A DNA stretch of 41,843 bases from Fidelibacterota bacterium (GTDB taxonomy: Bacteria; Fidelibacterota; Marinisomatia; Marinisomatales; SCKK01): positions 1 to 41,843 of the forward strand of contig SCKK01000030.1 of the NCBI GenBank assembly GCA_004124475.1, read 5' to 3'. Below, in pieces: positions 17,562 to 26,152 of this stretch. The position numbers and the translations under genes were made by a program. The stretch's first letter is position 1; the number at the start of each line of letters is the position of its first letter. Below the pieces are notes generated by a model. It did no database searches, was not told the DNA's origin, and saw only the letters and a list, made by a program, of their open reading frames with translations.

Positions 17562-18893
17562 ATGCAATTATTAAAAAAGACGCTTTTTCATCTCGGGATC
17601 TGTCTATTGATTCCTTTGGGGAATCTATGGGCGGTGAGTGAGGCAGCAGCAATTTTTCTGTTAATTTCACCGGGAGCGAGGGCTGGCGGAATGGGTGAAG
17701 CTCAGGTAGCCGTTGCCAACGATGCTTATGCAAGTTACTGGAACCCCGCCGGATTGGCTTTTTTACCTGGTAGGGAGATTGCTCTCATGCATGTCAATTG
17801 GCTTCCTAATCTTGTCTCGGACATGTACTATGAGTTTATTGCATTTCGTCAGCATGTCCCATCTTTAGGAACATTAGGTGGGCATATCATTTATTTGAAT
17901 TTAGGTGAACAACAACGGACAGACGAACAGGGAAACCCACTCGGTACTTTCACTAGTTTTATGTTTGCTATGACCGGGTCCTATGGAGCCAATATCTCTG
18001 ACAATGCAGCCATTGGATTGAATGTTAAGATCATGCATCAAAAGCTTGCGGAATTGGGAGCTGGTGCTGAAAAGGGGAAAGGTAAATCAACCGATTTTGC
18101 ATTTGATGTTGGCTACCTTCATAAAGAACTTTGGACGCCAAGATTAGATATAGGACTTACAATTACAAACATAGGACCAAAAGTTTCATTTATTGACGAA
18201 GCACAGGCAGACCCCATGCCGACCAATTTTACTTTTGGTATCAATTACAAATTAATCGACTCGGAATTTAATAAATTTCATCTTGTGTTAGACATAGATA
18301 AAATGTTGGTAGCTTCTTATCCGGACATGGATTGGAATAATGATGGAAGGATTGGAGGATTTGATAAAGATGGACACAGTTCAATCACAAATGCTATTTA
18401 TAATAAAAAGGGTCAGCAGGAAACCGCTCATACTGACCCAATTTACATAGGAATATTTACTTCATGGGTAGATGACTGGTATTTGGGTGGTGATATAGAC
18501 AAACAGGGAAAAGGCGGATCCTACGATAAAATAATTGGGGGATACACTTTTAATTCCAATGGAGATATTGAAAAAACCAATGTGGAATGGGGTGAACCTG
18601 GGTATGGTAAGTATAACGACGCCGGCGAACTTGAGGTGGGTACAGGGAAAAAAAGAAGTATAAAAAATGAATTGGATGAAATGATTTTCAATTTCGGAAT
18701 GGAATATTGGTATTCAAAATATTTCGCTTTGAGAGCGGGCTATTATTATGATAAAACCGGAAAAATTAATAATCCTACTTTTGGTATCGGACTTCGATTT
18801 TCAGGGTATGGCTTCGATGCTGGATTTACATTGGGTGAGCCAGGTCATCCATTAACAAATACCATGCGGTTTTCTTTAAACATGGAATTCTAA
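17562..18893 (+). CDS. PorV/PorQ-family outer-membrane protein
   Basis: This is an outer-membrane barrel of the FadL superfamily. In T9SS bacteria PorV shuttles cargo proteins from the translocon to the attachment complex. The 443 aa protein has a signal peptide (about 1-24), then the family signature LISPGARAGGMGEAQVAVAND followed by SYWNPAGLAFLPGREIALMH, and ends in alternating barrel strands with a terminal aromatic residue (SLNMEF). A longer insert with DMDWNNDGRIGGFDKDGHSS (about 255-275) looks like an Asp-rich calcium-binding loop. Directly downstream (13 bases) is a T9SS-tailed protein, so receptor and cargo may form a pair. PorV and paralogues cannot be separated here. Confidence 0.88.
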   Translation: MQLLKKTLFHLGICLLIPLGNLWAVSEAAAIFLLISPGARAGGMGEAQVAVANDAYASYWNPAGLAFLPGREIALMHVNWLPNLVSDMYYEFIAFRQHVPSLGTLGGHIIYLNLGEQQRTDEQGNPLGTFTSFMFAMTGSYGANISDNAAIGLNVKIMHQKLAELGAGAEKGKGKSTDFAFDVGYLHKELWTPRLDIGLTITNIGPKVSFIDEAQADPMPTNFTFGINYKLIDSEFNKFHLVLDIDKMLVASYPDMDWNNDGRIGGFDKDGHSSITNAIYNKKGQQETAHTDPIYIGIFTSWVDDWYLGGDIDKQGKGGSYDKIIGGYTFNSNGDIEKTNVEWGEPGYGKYNDAGELEVGTGKKRSIKNELDEMIFNFGMEYWYSKYFALRAGYYYDKTGKINNPTFGIGLRFSGYGFDAGFTLGEPGHPLTNTMRFSLNMEF

Positions 18894-18906: not shown

Positions 18907-21807
18907 ATGCACAATTCAAGTCCTGTGGTCATGGATTACAGGACTTTTTTATTACAATCTGTGAGAAGGATAATTCCATATTTTTTTCTTATCACCTTTT
19001 CTTCAGGTCAATTTGCCCCCACTATAGGTAAAATATCGGTGCTTGGGATCCGGGTCTCGTTTGTCCTTGATGAAGATATAACCACGACGGGTAATGGCAG
19101 TTTCCTGACTTCTTTGGAAACTGACAGGTGTGGCGTTTACGTCATTGATCCTCCTCCTCACAATAAAAAATATTTTGAAGATCAACTAAAAGCGATGGAT
19201 AGTTACTTTCGATCTGTGTCGAAAGAGAACTTATGGCTCAACTGGTCCATTTTTCCAGAAGCAAATGATTCAAGTTATCAGGTAGATAATGTGATGAAAT
19301 ACTATTATCCCTTTGGTGATGAAGTATTACAAGATCAGAGACTTGCCGAATTTTTCCAATCGTCATTGGAGCAAGCATTTGATATCGATAGCATTAATTT
19401 TGACAGTTACGATGTGGTGGTCATTTTTCACGCAGGTATTGGTCAAGATTTTGCCCTTCCCTTTCTGGACCCTACACCGGAAGATATCCCATCAACTTAT
19501 ATCGATTCCGACTTTTTATCTAAACAACTCGGTATAGATAAAATTGTTTTTGATGACGGGAGTTCAGTATCCTCGGGGATAATACTACCTGAAACCCAGA
19601 ATCACCTTTTGTACGACATAGCTGATGATATATTTGCAGGTGCTGCTCAGCCATGTGACTTCCAATTTGGGTTAACAGGAACTTTTGCCCTCATGATGGG
19701 GTTTGCCATCGGTCTACCACCCCTGTGGAATGTTGAGAATGGACAGAGTGGCGTGGGTGTCTTTGCTTTGATGGATCAAGGTTCAAATAACGGCAGAGGT
19801 CTGATTCCCACACCTCCTGATGCCTGGACACGAATGTATGCAGGTTGGGAATCATCCACAACTATACGACCTACTACTGATGATATTCCCCTCATTGAAA
19901 GGGATTCACTGGAGAATCAGATTGTTAAAGTGGATATCAATGGTTCGGAATATTTTTTGATTGAAAATAGAAACAATTGGATTTCCGGAGAAGCGGATAT
20001 TGATTCCATAAGGTGGAAAAATCGGGATAATAGTGGCGTGATGTCTCCATATGTTCAAATATTGTTTGATTCGGTTGCTGTAGAAATAGACTCCGTGACA
20101 GGAGTAATCACGTCAGTTCCCAATTATGATATTGGCCTACCTAATTCTGGTCTCCTTATCTGGCACGTGGATGAAGACAAGATTTCGGAAGGGCAAGGGA
20201 GTTATGAGGTTAATTCTGACCGTATGCACAGAGGTATTGACCTGGAGGAAGCCGACGGTGCTCAGGACATCGGTTATATTTCGATTTTCCCGTTTTTTGA
20301 TCCATCCATCGGTTTGTGGTCGGATATGTGGTTTGCAAGTAATTCCAGATATTTCTATGCCAATCCTGGTTTTGAGGGACAGTTGCCTTCCTTTGGTCCG
20401 GATACATATCCAAACACCCAAAGTAATGACGGTGCCGACAGCTTTATCGAAATTAATAATATCTCTGATGCAGGAAAGATAATGACATTTTCAGTTGAAA
20501 ATTCTCTGTTAGCTGACGGGTTTCCGGATACATTACTGTACATCCATTTTTTCTACGATTTCACAGGAGATGGCGTGCCGGAAATAATAGGTGGGTTGGA
20601 TTCGCTGTGGTGGTCGAATTCAGATTCGATTTATCAAAATTACTTTTTTTGTTGTACTAGCTCTGAATTCCAATTATTGACCACTGAAGATGAATTAGGG
20701 GTAAGTATAGTCTATGTTGGATTTGGAAAAAAAACTACGGTAAAAGCATTTAAATATAATTCAGAGAATGATCAACTCTCGGAAGACTGGAGTCAAATGA
20801 TTCCTTATTATGTACCTGGATTTGCAATGGGAGATGATAACGGTGGGATTACTCTTTTTGGGGATTCGTCTGAAATATATATCAATAAAGATACAGTAAT
20901 TGTTTCTGATGGACCCATTTCGGAAGGAAATATTTTGCCTATTTCAGTTGTAATTACTGATCCAGTAGCAGGAGATTCTGCTAATTTAGTAATAAGTTTA
21001 CCTGGATTTTCAGCAATTAGAGGGTTAATCATTAAAACCAATGGAATATCAACTGATGGATTAAACGACCATGAATTTTCAAATATAGCAGTTTCAGACA
21101 TTGATCTTGACGGCAAAATTGAAGTGTTGGCAATAGAAGAAGGATCTGTTTTTGTAATTAACACAAACTTTACTTTTGATTCAGGTTTCCCAATTGAACT
21201 AAATACGACCTCGTTAGTACTTACGAGAGACTTATATGGAGATGAACATCCTGAGGTGGTAGTTCAAATTGAGAATGGTGATGTTGTTGTCCTTGACTGG
21301 CAGGGGAGAGAACAGTATCGTCTGTCTAATCCGAAGGAGAGTGAACTTCGAATGCTGAGTCAGTATAAAGGGCGGAACTGCATCGCAACTGAATCATCCA
21401 TCTGGCTCTTCGATGAGGCAACGGAAACAAACAGCAATGAATGGCCATATATTCATCATGATCCTTCAAATCGTAGAATTTATAAAACAACTTTGGAGTT
21501 TAAAACTGCTGATGAATCTAAATTAATCGATACAAAACGCACTTACAATTATCCCAACCCTGCAGAAAATGGCGAAACTACCCTAAGAGTATTTGTGGAA
21601 TCGGCAGAAAAAGTGGAAATTAATATCTATGATCTGGCTGGTTATTTTGTCAAGCGGTTTAGGATGGATGCTCCCATTCAAGGGGAGGTGAACGAAGTGG
21701 TTTGGGATGTGACAAATGTGGAAAGCGGAGTCTATTTTGCTAACATTATGGCAATAAAAGGGAGTAAATCTGAAAATAAGATTCTGAAAATCGCGGTGGT
21801 TCATTGA
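18907..21807 (+). CDS. M6-type metallopeptidase homologue lacking the zinc motif, with FG-GAP repeats and T9SS tail
   Basis: The 966 aa secreted protein has a signal peptide (about 14-36). Residues about 75-315 align with immune-inhibitor-A-like M6 peptidases, including YDVVVIFHAGIGQDF. Where active members read xHEFGHxLGLPDLYD, this one reads ALMMGFAIGLPPLWN (261-275): the two His and the Glu are replaced by L262, F266 and M263, so it should not bind zinc or cleave peptides. Later come FG-GAP-like calcium-loop repeats (DFTGDGVPEI, DIDLDGKIEV, DLYGDEHPEV). The last ~85 residues (from YNYPNPAENGETTLRVF, with NIYDLAGYFVKRF) form a T9SS type A sorting domain. It likely acts as a surface binding protein. 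PorV-family gene is directly upstream. Confidence 0.88.
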   Translation: MHNSSPVVMDYRTFLLQSVRRIIPYFFLITFSSGQFAPTIGKISVLGIRVSFVLDEDITTTGNGSFLTSLETDRCGVYVIDPPPHNKKYFEDQLKAMDSYFRSVSKENLWLNWSIFPEANDSSYQVDNVMKYYYPFGDEVLQDQRLAEFFQSSLEQAFDIDSINFDSYDVVVIFHAGIGQDFALPFLDPTPEDIPSTYIDSDFLSKQLGIDKIVFDDGSSVSSGIILPETQNHLLYDIADDIFAGAAQPCDFQFGLTGTFALMMGFAIGLPPLWNVENGQSGVGVFALMDQGSNNGRGLIPTPPDAWTRMYAGWESSTTIRPTTDDIPLIERDSLENQIVKVDINGSEYFLIENRNNWISGEADIDSIRWKNRDNSGVMSPYVQILFDSVAVEIDSVTGVITSVPNYDIGLPNSGLLIWHVDEDKISEGQGSYEVNSDRMHRGIDLEEADGAQDIGYISIFPFFDPSIGLWSDMWFASNSRYFYANPGFEGQLPSFGPDTYPNTQSNDGADSFIEINNISDAGKIMTFSVENSLLADGFPDTLLYIHFFYDFTGDGVPEIIGGLDSLWWSNSDSIYQNYFFCCTSSEFQLLTTEDELGVSIVYVGFGKKTTVKAFKYNSENDQLSEDWSQMIPYYVPGFAMGDDNGGITLFGDSSEIYINKDTVIVSDGPISEGNILPISVVITDPVAGDSANLVISLPGFSAIRGLIIKTNGISTDGLNDHEFSNIAVSDIDLDGKIEVLAIEEGSVFVINTNFTFDSGFPIELNTTSLVLTRDLYGDEHPEVVVQIENGDVVVLDWQGREQYRLSNPKESELRMLSQYKGRNCIATESSIWLFDEATETNSNEWPYIHHDPSNRRIYKTTLEFKTADESKLIDTKRTYNYPNPAENGETTLRVFVESAEKVEINIYDLAGYFVKRFRMDAPIQGEVNEVVWDVTNVESGVYFANIMAIKGSKSENKILKIAVVH

Positions 21808-22317
21808 TGCAAGGTGAGATTTAGAATTAAAGCTTTAGTTTTTTCTGGGTAGTAGTAATTCAATGAGAGAAATGTATAGAACCCCGAACCGTAAAACCCT
21901 GATGGGGAAATTTCGTCTATCTTGCTGTATTGCCTGCCTGCCGTCAGGCAGGGAATTTCACTATAGGTCACGAAGGTCACAATGGACTCTCCGTGGGAGT
22001 CCTTCGTGACCCTTGGAGACTCCCACAGAGAGTCCCTTCGGGACTGTTTATCGTCCAGATAATTTCTCACAGGTTAATCGTTGAACGGTTATCCCGAACT
22101 TTCGGGATATCGGTATACGTTTTTCGGATACATACCCGTTTGCCGAAAGATCTCAAAGGTTCGGGAGGCCTCGTTACCCCTACCGCTCCGTAAGGAATCC
22201 ATACGGGAAAAGACGATATGCTACCATCACTTGTCAATCATAATTCACTAATCGCCAGTCATAATATTAATCAATCCATCTTAATGAAATCTATCTTTCG
22301 TACGGAATGATGGACAG
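21808..22317. repeat. Repeat-rich 0.5-kb gap: mosaic palindromes, copy 4
   Basis: This is the largest gene-free stretch. It begins AT-rich, then from 21931 carries GCCTGCCTGCCGTCAGGCAGG, AATTTCACTATAGGTCACGA, alternating GGACTC/GAGTCC inverted segments (about 21982-22045, for example GGACTCTCCGTGGGAGTCC), then ATCCCGAACTTTCGGGAT (22091-22108) and a GC-rich tail to about 22200. The first ~85 bases are homologous to copy 1 at 11364. Open frames across this element (for example 21930-22193) are by-products of the GC-rich repeats. The final ~110 bases are AT-rich and may hold the promoter of the next gene. Confidence 0.85.
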
Positions 22318-22323
22318 GTGACG

Positions 22324-25266
22324 ATGGATCAATTTACAAAGCTATGTTCGTTATTATGGATGATTTTGTTCCCTGTCTATTCTCAGGTGGGATACAACCA
22401 TCCGGAATTGGATTGGCAGACGTTTGAAACTCCCCACTTTCTGATTCATTTCACACCGGAAACGGAGCGAACAGCGAGGGAAGGAGCATTTGTGGCTGAA
22501 TCAATTTATCCCCATGTCACCAAAGTATATGATTATGAACCACCCACAAAAACGCACCTCATTTTTCTGGATACCGATGATTATTCGAATGGTATCACCT
22601 ATTATTATGACAATAAGATTGAAATCTGGTCTTCTCCATTGGATTTTGAACTTAGAGGAAGTCATCGCTGGCTTCAGGGTGTGATTACTCATGAATTCGT
22701 TCACATTATATCGCTTCAGAAATCATTCAAATTCGGGAATAACATCCCAGGAGCCTATATCCAATGGATAGGATATGAGAAGGAGACGAGGGAAGATGTT
22801 CTCTACGGCTACCCTCACACATTGATTTCGTATCCAATTCCTGGTGCAACGGTACCACCCTGGTTGGCAGAAGGTGTAGCACAATATATGTATGAAGGAG
22901 CTACTCACGATTTTTGGGATACACACAGGGATATGATATTGAGAGATCATGTCATTCACGGTCATCTCCACACTCTCAATGAAATGAATACGTTCGGAAA
23001 AAGTGGCATTGGAAATGAATCGACGTACAATGCCGGTTTTGCTTTAGTGAGGTACATTGTTTTTAAATATGGAGAATCGTCCCTTAAAAAAATCTTGACG
23101 AATCTTTCCAATCCTTTTCGTTATTCTGTTGATCGCGCTATTAAAATGGCTATCGGACTGTCAGGGAATCAAGTTTATCATGAATTTAAAAATACTCTGG
23201 AAGCACGTTATGAAAAACTATTGGCAAGTATCAAAGAAGAATTCAAGGGAACAGTTTTATTGAATAATGGAACGACAAACATACACCCGGTATGGGCGCC
23301 TGATGGCAGAAGATTTGCTTATCTATCCAACAATAAAAACGATTATTTTAGCCAGACAGATTTATATATTTACGACCTCGATTCGGATATATCAGAGATG
23401 ATCACTGAAGGTGTTATCTCTGCAGCGACTTGGAAATCTACAGGTGAAATTATCTACTACTGTAAAAAATCAAAGCCGGACAAACGTGGATCGAAGTGGT
23501 TTGATTTGTATGAATATAATTTCGAAAAGGATAAAGAGATAAGGCTTACTCATGGAAGCCGTGCTTTTTCACCCGTTCTTCTTCCTGGTGATAGTTTATT
23601 AGCGTATCTGGCTGTAAGTGATGGCACGCATAATGTGGTTTTAATAAACCTTATCTCAAAAGAGTCGGAACAGATTACGGATTTTGAAAATGGGAAACAG
23701 ATTTTCAGTTTGGCTTACGACCAGAAAAAAAACTGGCTTCTTTTCGATTATGTAGAAAATCACTTTCGTAACACGGCATTTCTCAGCTTAACGGATACTA
23801 CATTGGGTAACTATATGGCTACTATGGAATGGGATGAACGCGACATAACAACGTCCGATGGTATAACCGTTTTCTCAAATGACAAAACTGGTATCTTTAA
23901 CCTTTATTTTGTAAATGAATCCACAAGTGAACAGGGATACATCACTAATGTTATTGGGGGAGCATTTATGCCGAATGTCAATAGTGATGGACAAATAATA
24001 TACTCCCTTTATGAGGATGGCGGATATAAAATTGCCTTAATCGATACATTTACGTTGATAAGCGAAGAAGTTGTAGGGTATAGTCCAAACTATTTTAAGA
24101 AGTTTGCTCATCTCCCTGAGCAGACTGATAGTCAGGATGGGTCAGAGGCTAAGAATTATCATGATCTGTTTTCACCGATGTTTATCTTTCCGAAGATCAT
24201 GATAGACTATGGAACAGTAAAACCAGGATTTTACTTTTACTCCAGTGAAATCCTGAACAAACTCAACATATTTGGAGGGGCATCTACAAACAGTATCTTT
24301 GACGTGGATCTTTTCTTGCTATTCGAGTTCAGAAAATTTTACCCAACCCTGTTCTCTGAAATATTTTATATCACGAGAAACATATCGGAAAGCACTAAGT
24401 ATATAGAAGTTTATGATCTGGATTATGATATTCAGTTTCGCCTTTTCCAGTGGGATGCCGGTTTGAGAATCCCAATTCGTGGATCTCATGAGCTAAAGTT
24501 GTATGGCTCATATCAGAAATTTCATGAGAATTTCAAAGAGCGGGTTGAAGGGCAGTTTGGTAAAGTAGGTCTTGATTATTATATTGGAAAACATCTGGGA
24601 ATAAGTTGGAACACTCACCTCGTAAAAAGAACGGTAGATGCAGATATTAATCCAGGACATGGATTTCATCTGTTCTTTGATGGGAAGTGGGAGAAAAACA
24701 AGTTTTTTGAAGGTTTCAAAATCAACGAAGATTATTCTACTCTGCAAGAAGTTTTTACACCCTTTGAATTTTGGCGACTTTCTGCGAATGCTGATTATCA
24801 TTACACAATCCCTCGAACGCCGAGATGGACAGCCTCATTCGGTATAAGATCCGGATGGATGTCTGAAACTGAAGTTGATTCATTTTTCAATTTCTTTGGA
24901 GGTGGATTACCTGGAATAAAAGGATATCCATATTACAGTATAGAAGGGAACAGATTGGTTCAAGGAAACTTTACGCTTCGTATTCCTATAATGATGGAAA
25001 AACACATCCCATTTGGGCCATTTATTCTTCAAAATGTGGTGGTAGGGTTGGTTGGACAGTATGGGGATGCATGGAATGGCGATGGCGGTAAGTTTGATGG
25101 GAAAAAGTCTGTGGGTCTGCAATTTCGTTTTGGTGGATTCTCTTTTTATAATTATCCAACAGGAATTGCTGTGGAAGTTCATAAAGGATTGAATAAATTC
25201 TCGATAGAAGAAACTTCATTTGGTGAAGAAATAAGAACTTATTTCACAATATTATTTGGGTTTTAG
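22324..25266 (+). CDS. Gluzincin metallopeptidase with TolB-like propeller and outer-membrane C-terminal domain
   Basis: This is a 980 aa secreted or outer-membrane protein. A short signal (to about VYSQ) is followed by a peptidase-MA-like domain with an intact zinc site HEFVH (residues 123-127) and the downstream Glu in PPWLAEGVAQY (Glu183), so it should be catalytically competent. Residues about 290-620 contain PD40/TolB-type propeller blades (HPVWAPDGRRFAYLSNN, FSPVLLPGDSLLAYLAV, FMPNVNSDGQIIYSLYED). The C terminus resembles an Omp85-like barrel, with GGGLPGIKGYPYYSIEGNR and a final aromatic residue. The ATG at 22324 has AGGTG just upstream; a GTG at 22318 is an alternative start. Role likely envelope protein processing; substrate unknown. 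Confidence 0.82.
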   Translation: MDQFTKLCSLLWMILFPVYSQVGYNHPELDWQTFETPHFLIHFTPETERTAREGAFVAESIYPHVTKVYDYEPPTKTHLIFLDTDDYSNGITYYYDNKIEIWSSPLDFELRGSHRWLQGVITHEFVHIISLQKSFKFGNNIPGAYIQWIGYEKETREDVLYGYPHTLISYPIPGATVPPWLAEGVAQYMYEGATHDFWDTHRDMILRDHVIHGHLHTLNEMNTFGKSGIGNESTYNAGFALVRYIVFKYGESSLKKILTNLSNPFRYSVDRAIKMAIGLSGNQVYHEFKNTLEARYEKLLASIKEEFKGTVLLNNGTTNIHPVWAPDGRRFAYLSNNKNDYFSQTDLYIYDLDSDISEMITEGVISAATWKSTGEIIYYCKKSKPDKRGSKWFDLYEYNFEKDKEIRLTHGSRAFSPVLLPGDSLLAYLAVSDGTHNVVLINLISKESEQITDFENGKQIFSLAYDQKKNWLLFDYVENHFRNTAFLSLTDTTLGNYMATMEWDERDITTSDGITVFSNDKTGIFNLYFVNESTSEQGYITNVIGGAFMPNVNSDGQIIYSLYEDGGYKIALIDTFTLISEEVVGYSPNYFKKFAHLPEQTDSQDGSEAKNYHDLFSPMFIFPKIMIDYGTVKPGFYFYSSEILNKLNIFGGASTNSIFDVDLFLLFEFRKFYPTLFSEIFYITRNISESTKYIEVYDLDYDIQFRLFQWDAGLRIPIRGSHELKLYGSYQKFHENFKERVEGQFGKVGLDYYIGKHLGISWNTHLVKRTVDADINPGHGFHLFFDGKWEKNKFFEGFKINEDYSTLQEVFTPFEFWRLSANADYHYTIPRTPRWTASFGIRSGWMSETEVDSFFNFFGGGLPGIKGYPYYSIEGNRLVQGNFTLRIPIMMEKHIPFGPFILQNVVVGLVGQYGDAWNGDGGKFDGKKSVGLQFRFGGFSFYNYPTGIAVEVHKGLNKFSIEETSFGEEIRTYFTILFGF

Positions 25267-25267
25267 T

Positions 25268-26152
25268 ATGAAAAAAATAATAACACATCTCATCATTTTA
25301 GGGTTGTTGTCTGTGGTCTCGGTTGAAGCGGGTAACGGTATTTTTCATTATCGACCGGATTTTCACGGACCTATGTTTAATCTGACGGGAGCAATGAATG
25401 ATACAGACTCAGTAGCAGTTGTTACAAAGCCAAACAAATATCCGGCACGAGGGCTTATGTTATCATTAGTTGTTCCAGGTGGAGGTCAACTGTATGCCGG
25501 TTCGAAATTGAAATCGGCTCTCTTTTTCGCAGTAGAAATTGGCGGATGGCTCATATGGCGTGATTATACCAATAGAGGGGAGGATGAACGGCTCTCTTTT
25601 GAGAATTTTGCAGACCGTTTTTGGTCATTAACAAGTTGGGTTAACGTTAACTTTATCAGTTTATTTCATGAGTATCCAGAAGTAGGTATTAAGGGTACGC
25701 ATCACATTACTCTATTAATGCCTGATAGCAGTTTTGTATCATCTGATACTCTTTATTCCGGGTGGATAGAAGGAGCAATTGTGGTACGAGATCATGAGTT
25801 TTATGAGAACATCGGGAAATATAATCAATTCGTTTCAGGATGGATTGATTCAACAGGAAGTACGGAATGGTGGCGGGAGGATAAGAAAATAGGTAATAAT
25901 GTTGAAAATATTTTAATGACGTATAATAAAAAGGATTATTTAGACAAGCGCGCCAGACATAATGAGTTGTTAAAATTCGCTAAATATTCAATCACTGCTG
26001 TCATGTTTAACCATCTATTCAGTGCAATTGATGCAGCCTGGGAAATTAAAAAATCGTCTTCCAAGAAAAAGATTGATGTGACTGCTAACTTGTTTTTTTC
26101 TCCTTATAGTTCCATGGGAATTGGTGGTATAAAGGTCTCTCTGCTCTGGTAA
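25268..26152 (+). CDS. DUF5683-like envelope protein
   Basis: The 294 aa protein has a signal peptide (about 1-22) and the motif YPARGLMLSLVVPGGGQLYAG followed by a hydrophobic helix (SALFFAVEIGGWLIWRDY). This 'P..A...PG.GQ.Y' signature is typical of DUF5683 and related small membrane domains, which occur widely in FCB bacteria without known function. A second hydrophobic segment near YSITAVMFNHLFSAIDA and the ending GIGGIKVSLLW suggest membrane association. It starts two bases after the upstream peptidase gene and precedes bamD by 14 bases, so it is part of an envelope-biogenesis operon. Confidence 0.7.
   Translation: MKKIITHLIILGLLSVVSVEAGNGIFHYRPDFHGPMFNLTGAMNDTDSVAVVTKPNKYPARGLMLSLVVPGGGQLYAGSKLKSALFFAVEIGGWLIWRDYTNRGEDERLSFENFADRFWSLTSWVNVNFISLFHEYPEVGIKGTHHITLLMPDSSFVSSDTLYSGWIEGAIVVRDHEFYENIGKYNQFVSGWIDSTGSTEWWREDKKIGNNVENILMTYNKKDYLDKRARHNELLKFAKYSITAVMFNHLFSAIDAAWEIKKSSSKKKIDVTANLFFSPYSSMGIGGIKVSLLW

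Follow-up and report, generated by a model that had tools for sequence, protein, structure and literature searches.

An inactivated M6-like peptidase encoded beside porV: a candidate non-catalytic component of the T9SS attachment module

The gene m6i (18907..21807, + strand) lies within a 41,843-nucleotide stretch of DNA (the window) from a Neomarinimicrobiota MAG, and encodes a T9SS-dependent inactivated M6-like protein of 966 aa, identified by its match to NF052323, by a structure model and by fold search. The M6 fold is retained in the model, and the zinc site is dead throughout the family; the protein ends in a T9SS sorting domain, its gene is linked to porV and often also to porU, it co-occurs with PorU, and it is under purifying selection. 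We give an even chance to the reading that M6i is a surface protein with a type A CTD, is retained by PorV and acts as a non-catalytic component of the attachment module of the T9SS; it would be exported, retained on PorV, bind peptides and take part in handling cargo. The T9SS mechanism is known from Bacteroidia models, which appear to have no m6i; a dead peptidase that is fixed beside porV across several phyla, often together with porU and an active-looking peptidase, suggests a machine component that such models cannot reveal. M6i is also a clear example of a peptidase fold retained for a purpose other than cutting, with graded candidate intermediates.

Results and discussion

Architecture and fold of M6i

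An AAAGGA-like ribosome-binding sequence is located 5' of the ATG at 18907; in some relatives the start lies further in, with an in-frame stop within the first ~18 codons. The structure model places a hydrophobic helix at residues 11-33, which is followed by an M6-like pseudopeptidase domain (residues 38-534; 19018..20508, +), a fast-evolving, beta-propeller-like middle region (residues 536-870; 20512..21516, +) and a T9SS type A sorting domain (residues 882-959; 21550..21783, +). The sorting domain scores above the cut-offs of both TIGR04183 (32.7 bits; cut-off 23) and PF18962 (33.8 bits; cut-off 27), which upholds, at the level of this domain, the T9SS secretion proposed in an earlier note on this DNA. 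SprA, PorU and PorV are all found in the window's genome (G000). The FG-GAP loops, which had been described as intact, fared less well: the middle region is all-beta and propeller-like in the model, but its match to FG-GAP_3 at residues 731-786 is sub-threshold (22 bits; cut-off 26.9).

The whole-chain model has a pLDDT of 86.5 and a pTM of 0.82. Because propellers swamped the whole-chain fold search, in agreement with the propeller-like middle region, the M6-like domain was modelled alone (residues 38-534; pLDDT 93.3, pTM 0.93). The only PDB matches of this domain model at E < 1e-3 in Foldseek were four chains of InhA2 from B. anthracis (4yu5/4yu6; E 8e-13 to 8e-12), with ADAMTS/ADAM metzincins next, so that the modelled fold is of the M6/metzincin kind; the structure prediction that the earlier note had recommended leads to InhA2. 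A profile search of the PDB with M6i gave no match. With the M6 peptidases (immune inhibitor A, 4yu5/4yu6) M6i shares the fold (E 8e-13), the position of the active-site helix, the GLP motif and the Met of the Met-turn (Met289; 19771..19773, +; present in 114/115 members). It differs from them in that all four conserved residues of HExxHxxGxxD (H, E, H, D) are replaced, in its T9SS sorting domain, and in its score against the M6 domain model TIGR03296, which at 43.1 bits is far below the cut-off of 110.8.

The dead zinc site

At residues 262-272 (19690..19722, +), LMMGFAIGLPP replaces HEFGHALGLPD. Within the surrounding segment (residues 261-275, ALMMGFAIGLPPLWN) the H, E and H of the M6 motif have become L262, M263 and F266, and the Asp of HExxHxxGxxD, generally known as the third ligand, has become P272. 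This role of the Asp is part of the description of Asp-zincins (PMC3890501). An M6 paralogue with an intact site in the same genome, G000:C3 (CHEFGHALGLPDLYDTD), aligns with the site region of M6i without gaps over ALMMGFAIGLPPLWNVE; it exceeds the TIGR03296 cut-off (195 bits; cut-off 110.8) and its sequence finds InhA2 in the PDB (4yu5, E 1.8e-17). The window's genome has two such intact M6 paralogues alongside the dead one, G000:C3 and G000:C55 (L003 and L005; HEFGHALGLPDLYD).

Homologues of M6i were gathered from its own genome, from near relatives, from 199 genomes belonging to the phylum and by scanning the GTDB genome collection. The catalytic Glu occurs in 0/115 non-redundant homologues from independent assemblies; the first His occurs in one of the 115, the second His in six and the Asp in 12, and 20 further m6i loci agree on the dead site. 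Because the Glu is missing in 115/115, the loss of the catalytic site is, judged by this comparison, ancient and conserved. A second HExxH, named beforehand as the counter-evidence to look for, was found nowhere else in the M6i protein; HEISH/HEITH is present in five relatives, where it is unrelated and unconserved. Misalignment as the cause of the apparent dead site is ruled out by the intact paralogue, the 115 relatives and the fold search, and chance or assembly error by the 115 non-redundant homologues from independent assemblies. The earlier note gave the frame and its coordinates correctly, and its placement of L262, M263 and F266 in a gap-free segment at residues 261-275 is confirmed; its deduction that catalysis is lost and the M6 fold retained is supported by the sequence, the whole family and the structure model, and the comparison of homologues that it advised finds the replacement conserved.

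One relative (L152) has AHQFGH near residue 262 of the alignment, that is, both zinc His with Gln replacing Glu, and the Gemmatimonas-titled relatives mostly keep the second His alone; both are possible intermediates of inactivation. The graded retention of His and Asp across relatives suggests that an ancestral M6 peptidase was inactivated early and that its ligands drifted afterwards.

Selection on M6i

Comparison of M6i with its nearest relative (L009, 82% identical), a single pair analysed by a simple counting method, gave Ka/Ks values of 0.166 for the M6-like domain, 0.045 for the surroundings of the dead site and 0.58 for the propeller-like region, and there are zero amino-acid changes in the 89-residue sorting-domain stretch (residues 878-966). 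Mean pairwise identity among 27 order-level M6i sequences is 0.55 in the M6-like domain, 0.78 at the site, 0.30 in the propeller and 0.47 in the sorting domain. The dead site is thus better conserved than the rest of M6i, which argues against decay of the gene. The earlier suggestion that the protein is kept for binding is consistent with this strong purifying selection (Ka/Ks 0.17 in the M6-like domain and 0.045 around the dead site), the ligand itself being putative.

Family membership and distribution

NCBIfam already has an entry, NF052323 ('T9SS-dependent M6-like inactivated metalloprotease', T9SSA_dep_M6i), to which M6i is homologous over residues 37-531 and with which it shares the dead M6 site and the type A sorting domain. 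The window protein scores 449 bits, under the curated cut-off of 600, and is not a member by NCBI's rule; this cut-off is reached by no genome in the sample of the window's phylum. Proteins of Balneola (L165, 961 bits) and Ignavibacteriales (L166, 803 bits) exceed it in the same gene context, with PorV directly upstream as in the window, a context not known to be part of the NCBI definition. Since these same-context proteins pass while 449 bits fall short of 600, the window M6i is best classified as a divergent branch of a kind already named by NCBIfam. The literature searched yielded no report of an inactive M6 protein associated with the T9SS.

Matches to M6i were found in 176/199 genomes of the window's phylum, representing 76/76 genera, mostly as a single copy per genome. 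The GTDB scan detected M6i in Candidatus Neomarinimicrobiota, KSB1, Calditrichota, LCP-89, Balneola and Balneolaceae, Ignavibacteriales, unclassified Bacteroidetes and a record titled Gemmatimonas phototrophica; in a 64-genome sample of the phylum around the last record, 61 genomes have it.

The porV-m6i cassette

The stop codon of porV (17562..18893, +) lies 13 bases before the start of m6i. The porV gene encodes a canonical-type outer-membrane shuttle protein of the PorV/PorQ family, with 269 bits against NF033709 (cut-off 90), 203 bits against NF033710 (cut-off 250) and 93 bits against PF19572, and is the best and most canonical of six PorV paralogues compared in its genome, the other five scoring 40-82 with NF033710. 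Elsewhere, the m6i-linked PorV rises above the NF033710 cut-off of 250, with 259 bits in Calditrichota and 287 bits in Balneola. On these profile scores, the m6i-linked PorV is of the canonical kind. A PorV homologue is located directly upstream of m6i, on the same strand, at 76/76 genome-collection loci with upstream sequence, and likewise at the loci collected earlier where the sequence allows. In the lineages further from the window's own, Bacteroidota and several other phyla among them, the order is porU-porV-m6i; it is seen in records of Balneola, Ignavibacteriales, LCP-89 and Calditrichaeota, in the Gemmatimonas-titled ones and in others.

In 247 genomes from the phylum of the Balneola record (the Bacteroidota sample; PorU threshold E <= 1e-60), M6i is present in 95, PorU in 165, both in 88 and neither in 75. 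PorU lies <=2.5 kb upstream of m6i on the same strand in 78/83 of the genomes with both places listed. In the window's genome PorU is on a separate contig (G000:C65), and porV and m6i are still paired. Seven genomes of the Bacteroidota sample (G276, G296, G323, G334, G386, G418 and G450) retain M6i without PorU at E <= 1e-60, which rules out dependence of M6i on PorU; SprA is found in 7/7 of them, and PorV is upstream of m6i in 3/3 loci read (L183, L190 and L191). Because m6i without PorU still adjoins PorV, PorV is the constant partner of M6i. These seven genomes apparently have a T9SS without its sortase. Replacement of PorZ by M6i is ruled out, as PorZ co-occurs in 80/95 M6i genomes.

Downstream of m6i, an MA-clan peptidase with HEFVH at residue 125 and a TolB/PD40-like propeller is encoded at 22318..25266 (+; PF13485 (Peptidase_MA_2) and PF07676). 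Its homologue follows m6i across phyla, at 55/56 loci having >3 kb of downstream sequence, and the H, E and H of its HExxH are invariant in 61/61 aligned sequences. One cassette thus holds both a strictly active-looking peptidase and the strictly dead M6i.

A possible role in the attachment module

PorV is described as a translocon component (PMC10994853) and as the shuttle that serves all cargo of type A (PMC12618676). The T9SS attachment complex is reported to consist of PorU, PorZ, PorV and PorQ, including surface proteins with sorting domains, and the sorting domain of PorZ is uncleaved (PMC8545088). PorU and PorZ of Porphyromonas gingivalis resemble M6i in being surface proteins with T9SS sorting domains, and they belong to the machine (PMC8545088); furthermore, PorU is PorV-anchored, and porU is in the same cassette as m6i in many genomes. 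The folds are unrelated, however, PorU being a gingipain-like sortase and PorZ consisting of propellers without a peptidase domain. Another parallel is with PorP/SprF-type shuttles and their type B substrates, where the shuttle gene also adjoins the gene of a sorting-domain protein; in those pairs each type B substrate is served by a shuttle of its own or by a few, encoded downstream (PMC12618676), whereas the sorting domain of M6i is type A and PorV is a general shuttle. The earlier note had regarded porV and m6i as a receptor and cargo pair. The link to PorV is real and conserved, but PorV is reported to serve all type A cargo, the window PorV is canonical, and the cassette also includes porU and the active-looking peptidase; a private pair is too narrow a description, and a T9SS module is the better one.

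We propose that M6i is synthesized with a putative signal peptide in addition to its type A sorting domain, passes the outer membrane via the T9SS and would then be handed to the PorV encoded just upstream. Unlike ordinary cargo, it would remain within the attachment module built on PorV, in the manner of PorU in Porphyromonas. The dead, hydrophobic cleft of its M6-like domain may bind polypeptide, whether the tails of cargo or a partner protein, and leave it uncut; the cutting would fall to PorU and possibly also to the downstream-encoded HExxH peptidase. We favour this proposal because of the linkage to PorV, the porU-porV-m6i order, the co-occurrence of M6i with PorU (88/95) and the usual single copy; because the linked PorV is canonical and m6i stays with PorV after loss of PorU; and because constraint peaks around the dead site and in the sorting domain. 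Against it, the T9SS of the classical models apparently functions in the absence of M6i, the Bacteroidia models appearing to have no m6i, and M6i is absent from 77/165 PorU-positive genomes of the Bacteroidota sample and from SprA-bearing reduced genomes. Since the use of PorV is common to type A cargo, linkage alone does not prove retention on PorV.

Some weight, although clearly less than to membership of the attachment module, is given to the explanation that M6i is a conserved PorV-dependent surface cargo with a job of its own, such as adhesion or maintenance of the envelope, and that its gene sits in a T9SS operon because the protein depends on the machine for export. Its type A sorting domain is ordinary and above the cut-offs, as in cargo, and the fast evolution of the propeller-like region (Ka/Ks 0.58; identity 0.30) is expected of an exposed surface domain; fixed linkage to porV in several phyla, a copy number near one and co-occurrence with PorU are nevertheless unusual for cargo, and in the one pair compared the sorting domain is unchanged in amino acids from the nearest relative. 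We consider it rather unlikely that M6i is a pseudoenzyme that inhibits, activates or presents substrate to the downstream HExxH peptidase, with PorV as exporter only: the conservation of that peptidase gene at 55 of the 56 loci, and the contrast between its invariant H, E and H (61/61) and the dead site of the M6i encoded beside it, would fit such a role, but the folds of the two proteins belong to different families.

Residual catalysis by the M6-like domain, through another metal site or set of residues, is very improbable. Several His, Asp and Glu residues (H85, H175, H420, D290, D422 and E448) are invariant in the M6i family, but H420, D422, E448 and the H175 region fall within motifs common to the intact paralogue (IWHIDE, EEADG and HTG/HAG) and look structural, the substituted helix is hydrophobic, and there is no conserved second HExxH. 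The probability that m6i is a decaying pseudogene or an assembly artefact is close to nil: although every record comes from a metagenome-assembled or single-cell genome and the catalytic residues are gone, the frame is open across dozens of independent assemblies, identical replacements are conserved across phyla, Ka/Ks is 0.045 around the site, and the tail and the operon position are intact.

Additional observations

Reduced relatives of the same order (family f15, 0.7-1.0 Mb; G015, G025, G032, G038, G046, G050 and others) have a SprA homologue without M6i or a full PorU, which suggests a trimmed T9SS. A simple dependence of M6i on SprA is unsupported, the reduced genomes of this one related family being mostly SprA-positive and M6i-negative. 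Elsewhere in the window's genome, a 1614-residue open frame (G000:C68:69696-71846, L071) scores 192 bits against NCBIfam PorU_rel_Nterm (cut-off 450), and a weak PorV-family match (C68:66703-67629) is located ~2 kb from it; the two perhaps form a second PorU/PorV-like pair. The downstream peptidase gene is followed by one for a 298-aa protein, weakly DUF5683-like (25256..26152, +), which is also downstream in most loci and is conserved more weakly. Between m6i and the peptidase gene there are ~500 bp (21808-22317) that include repeat-like sequence (e.g. ctgcctgccgtcaggcaggg); because the corresponding gap is almost nil in most relatives, this stretch looks like an insertion.
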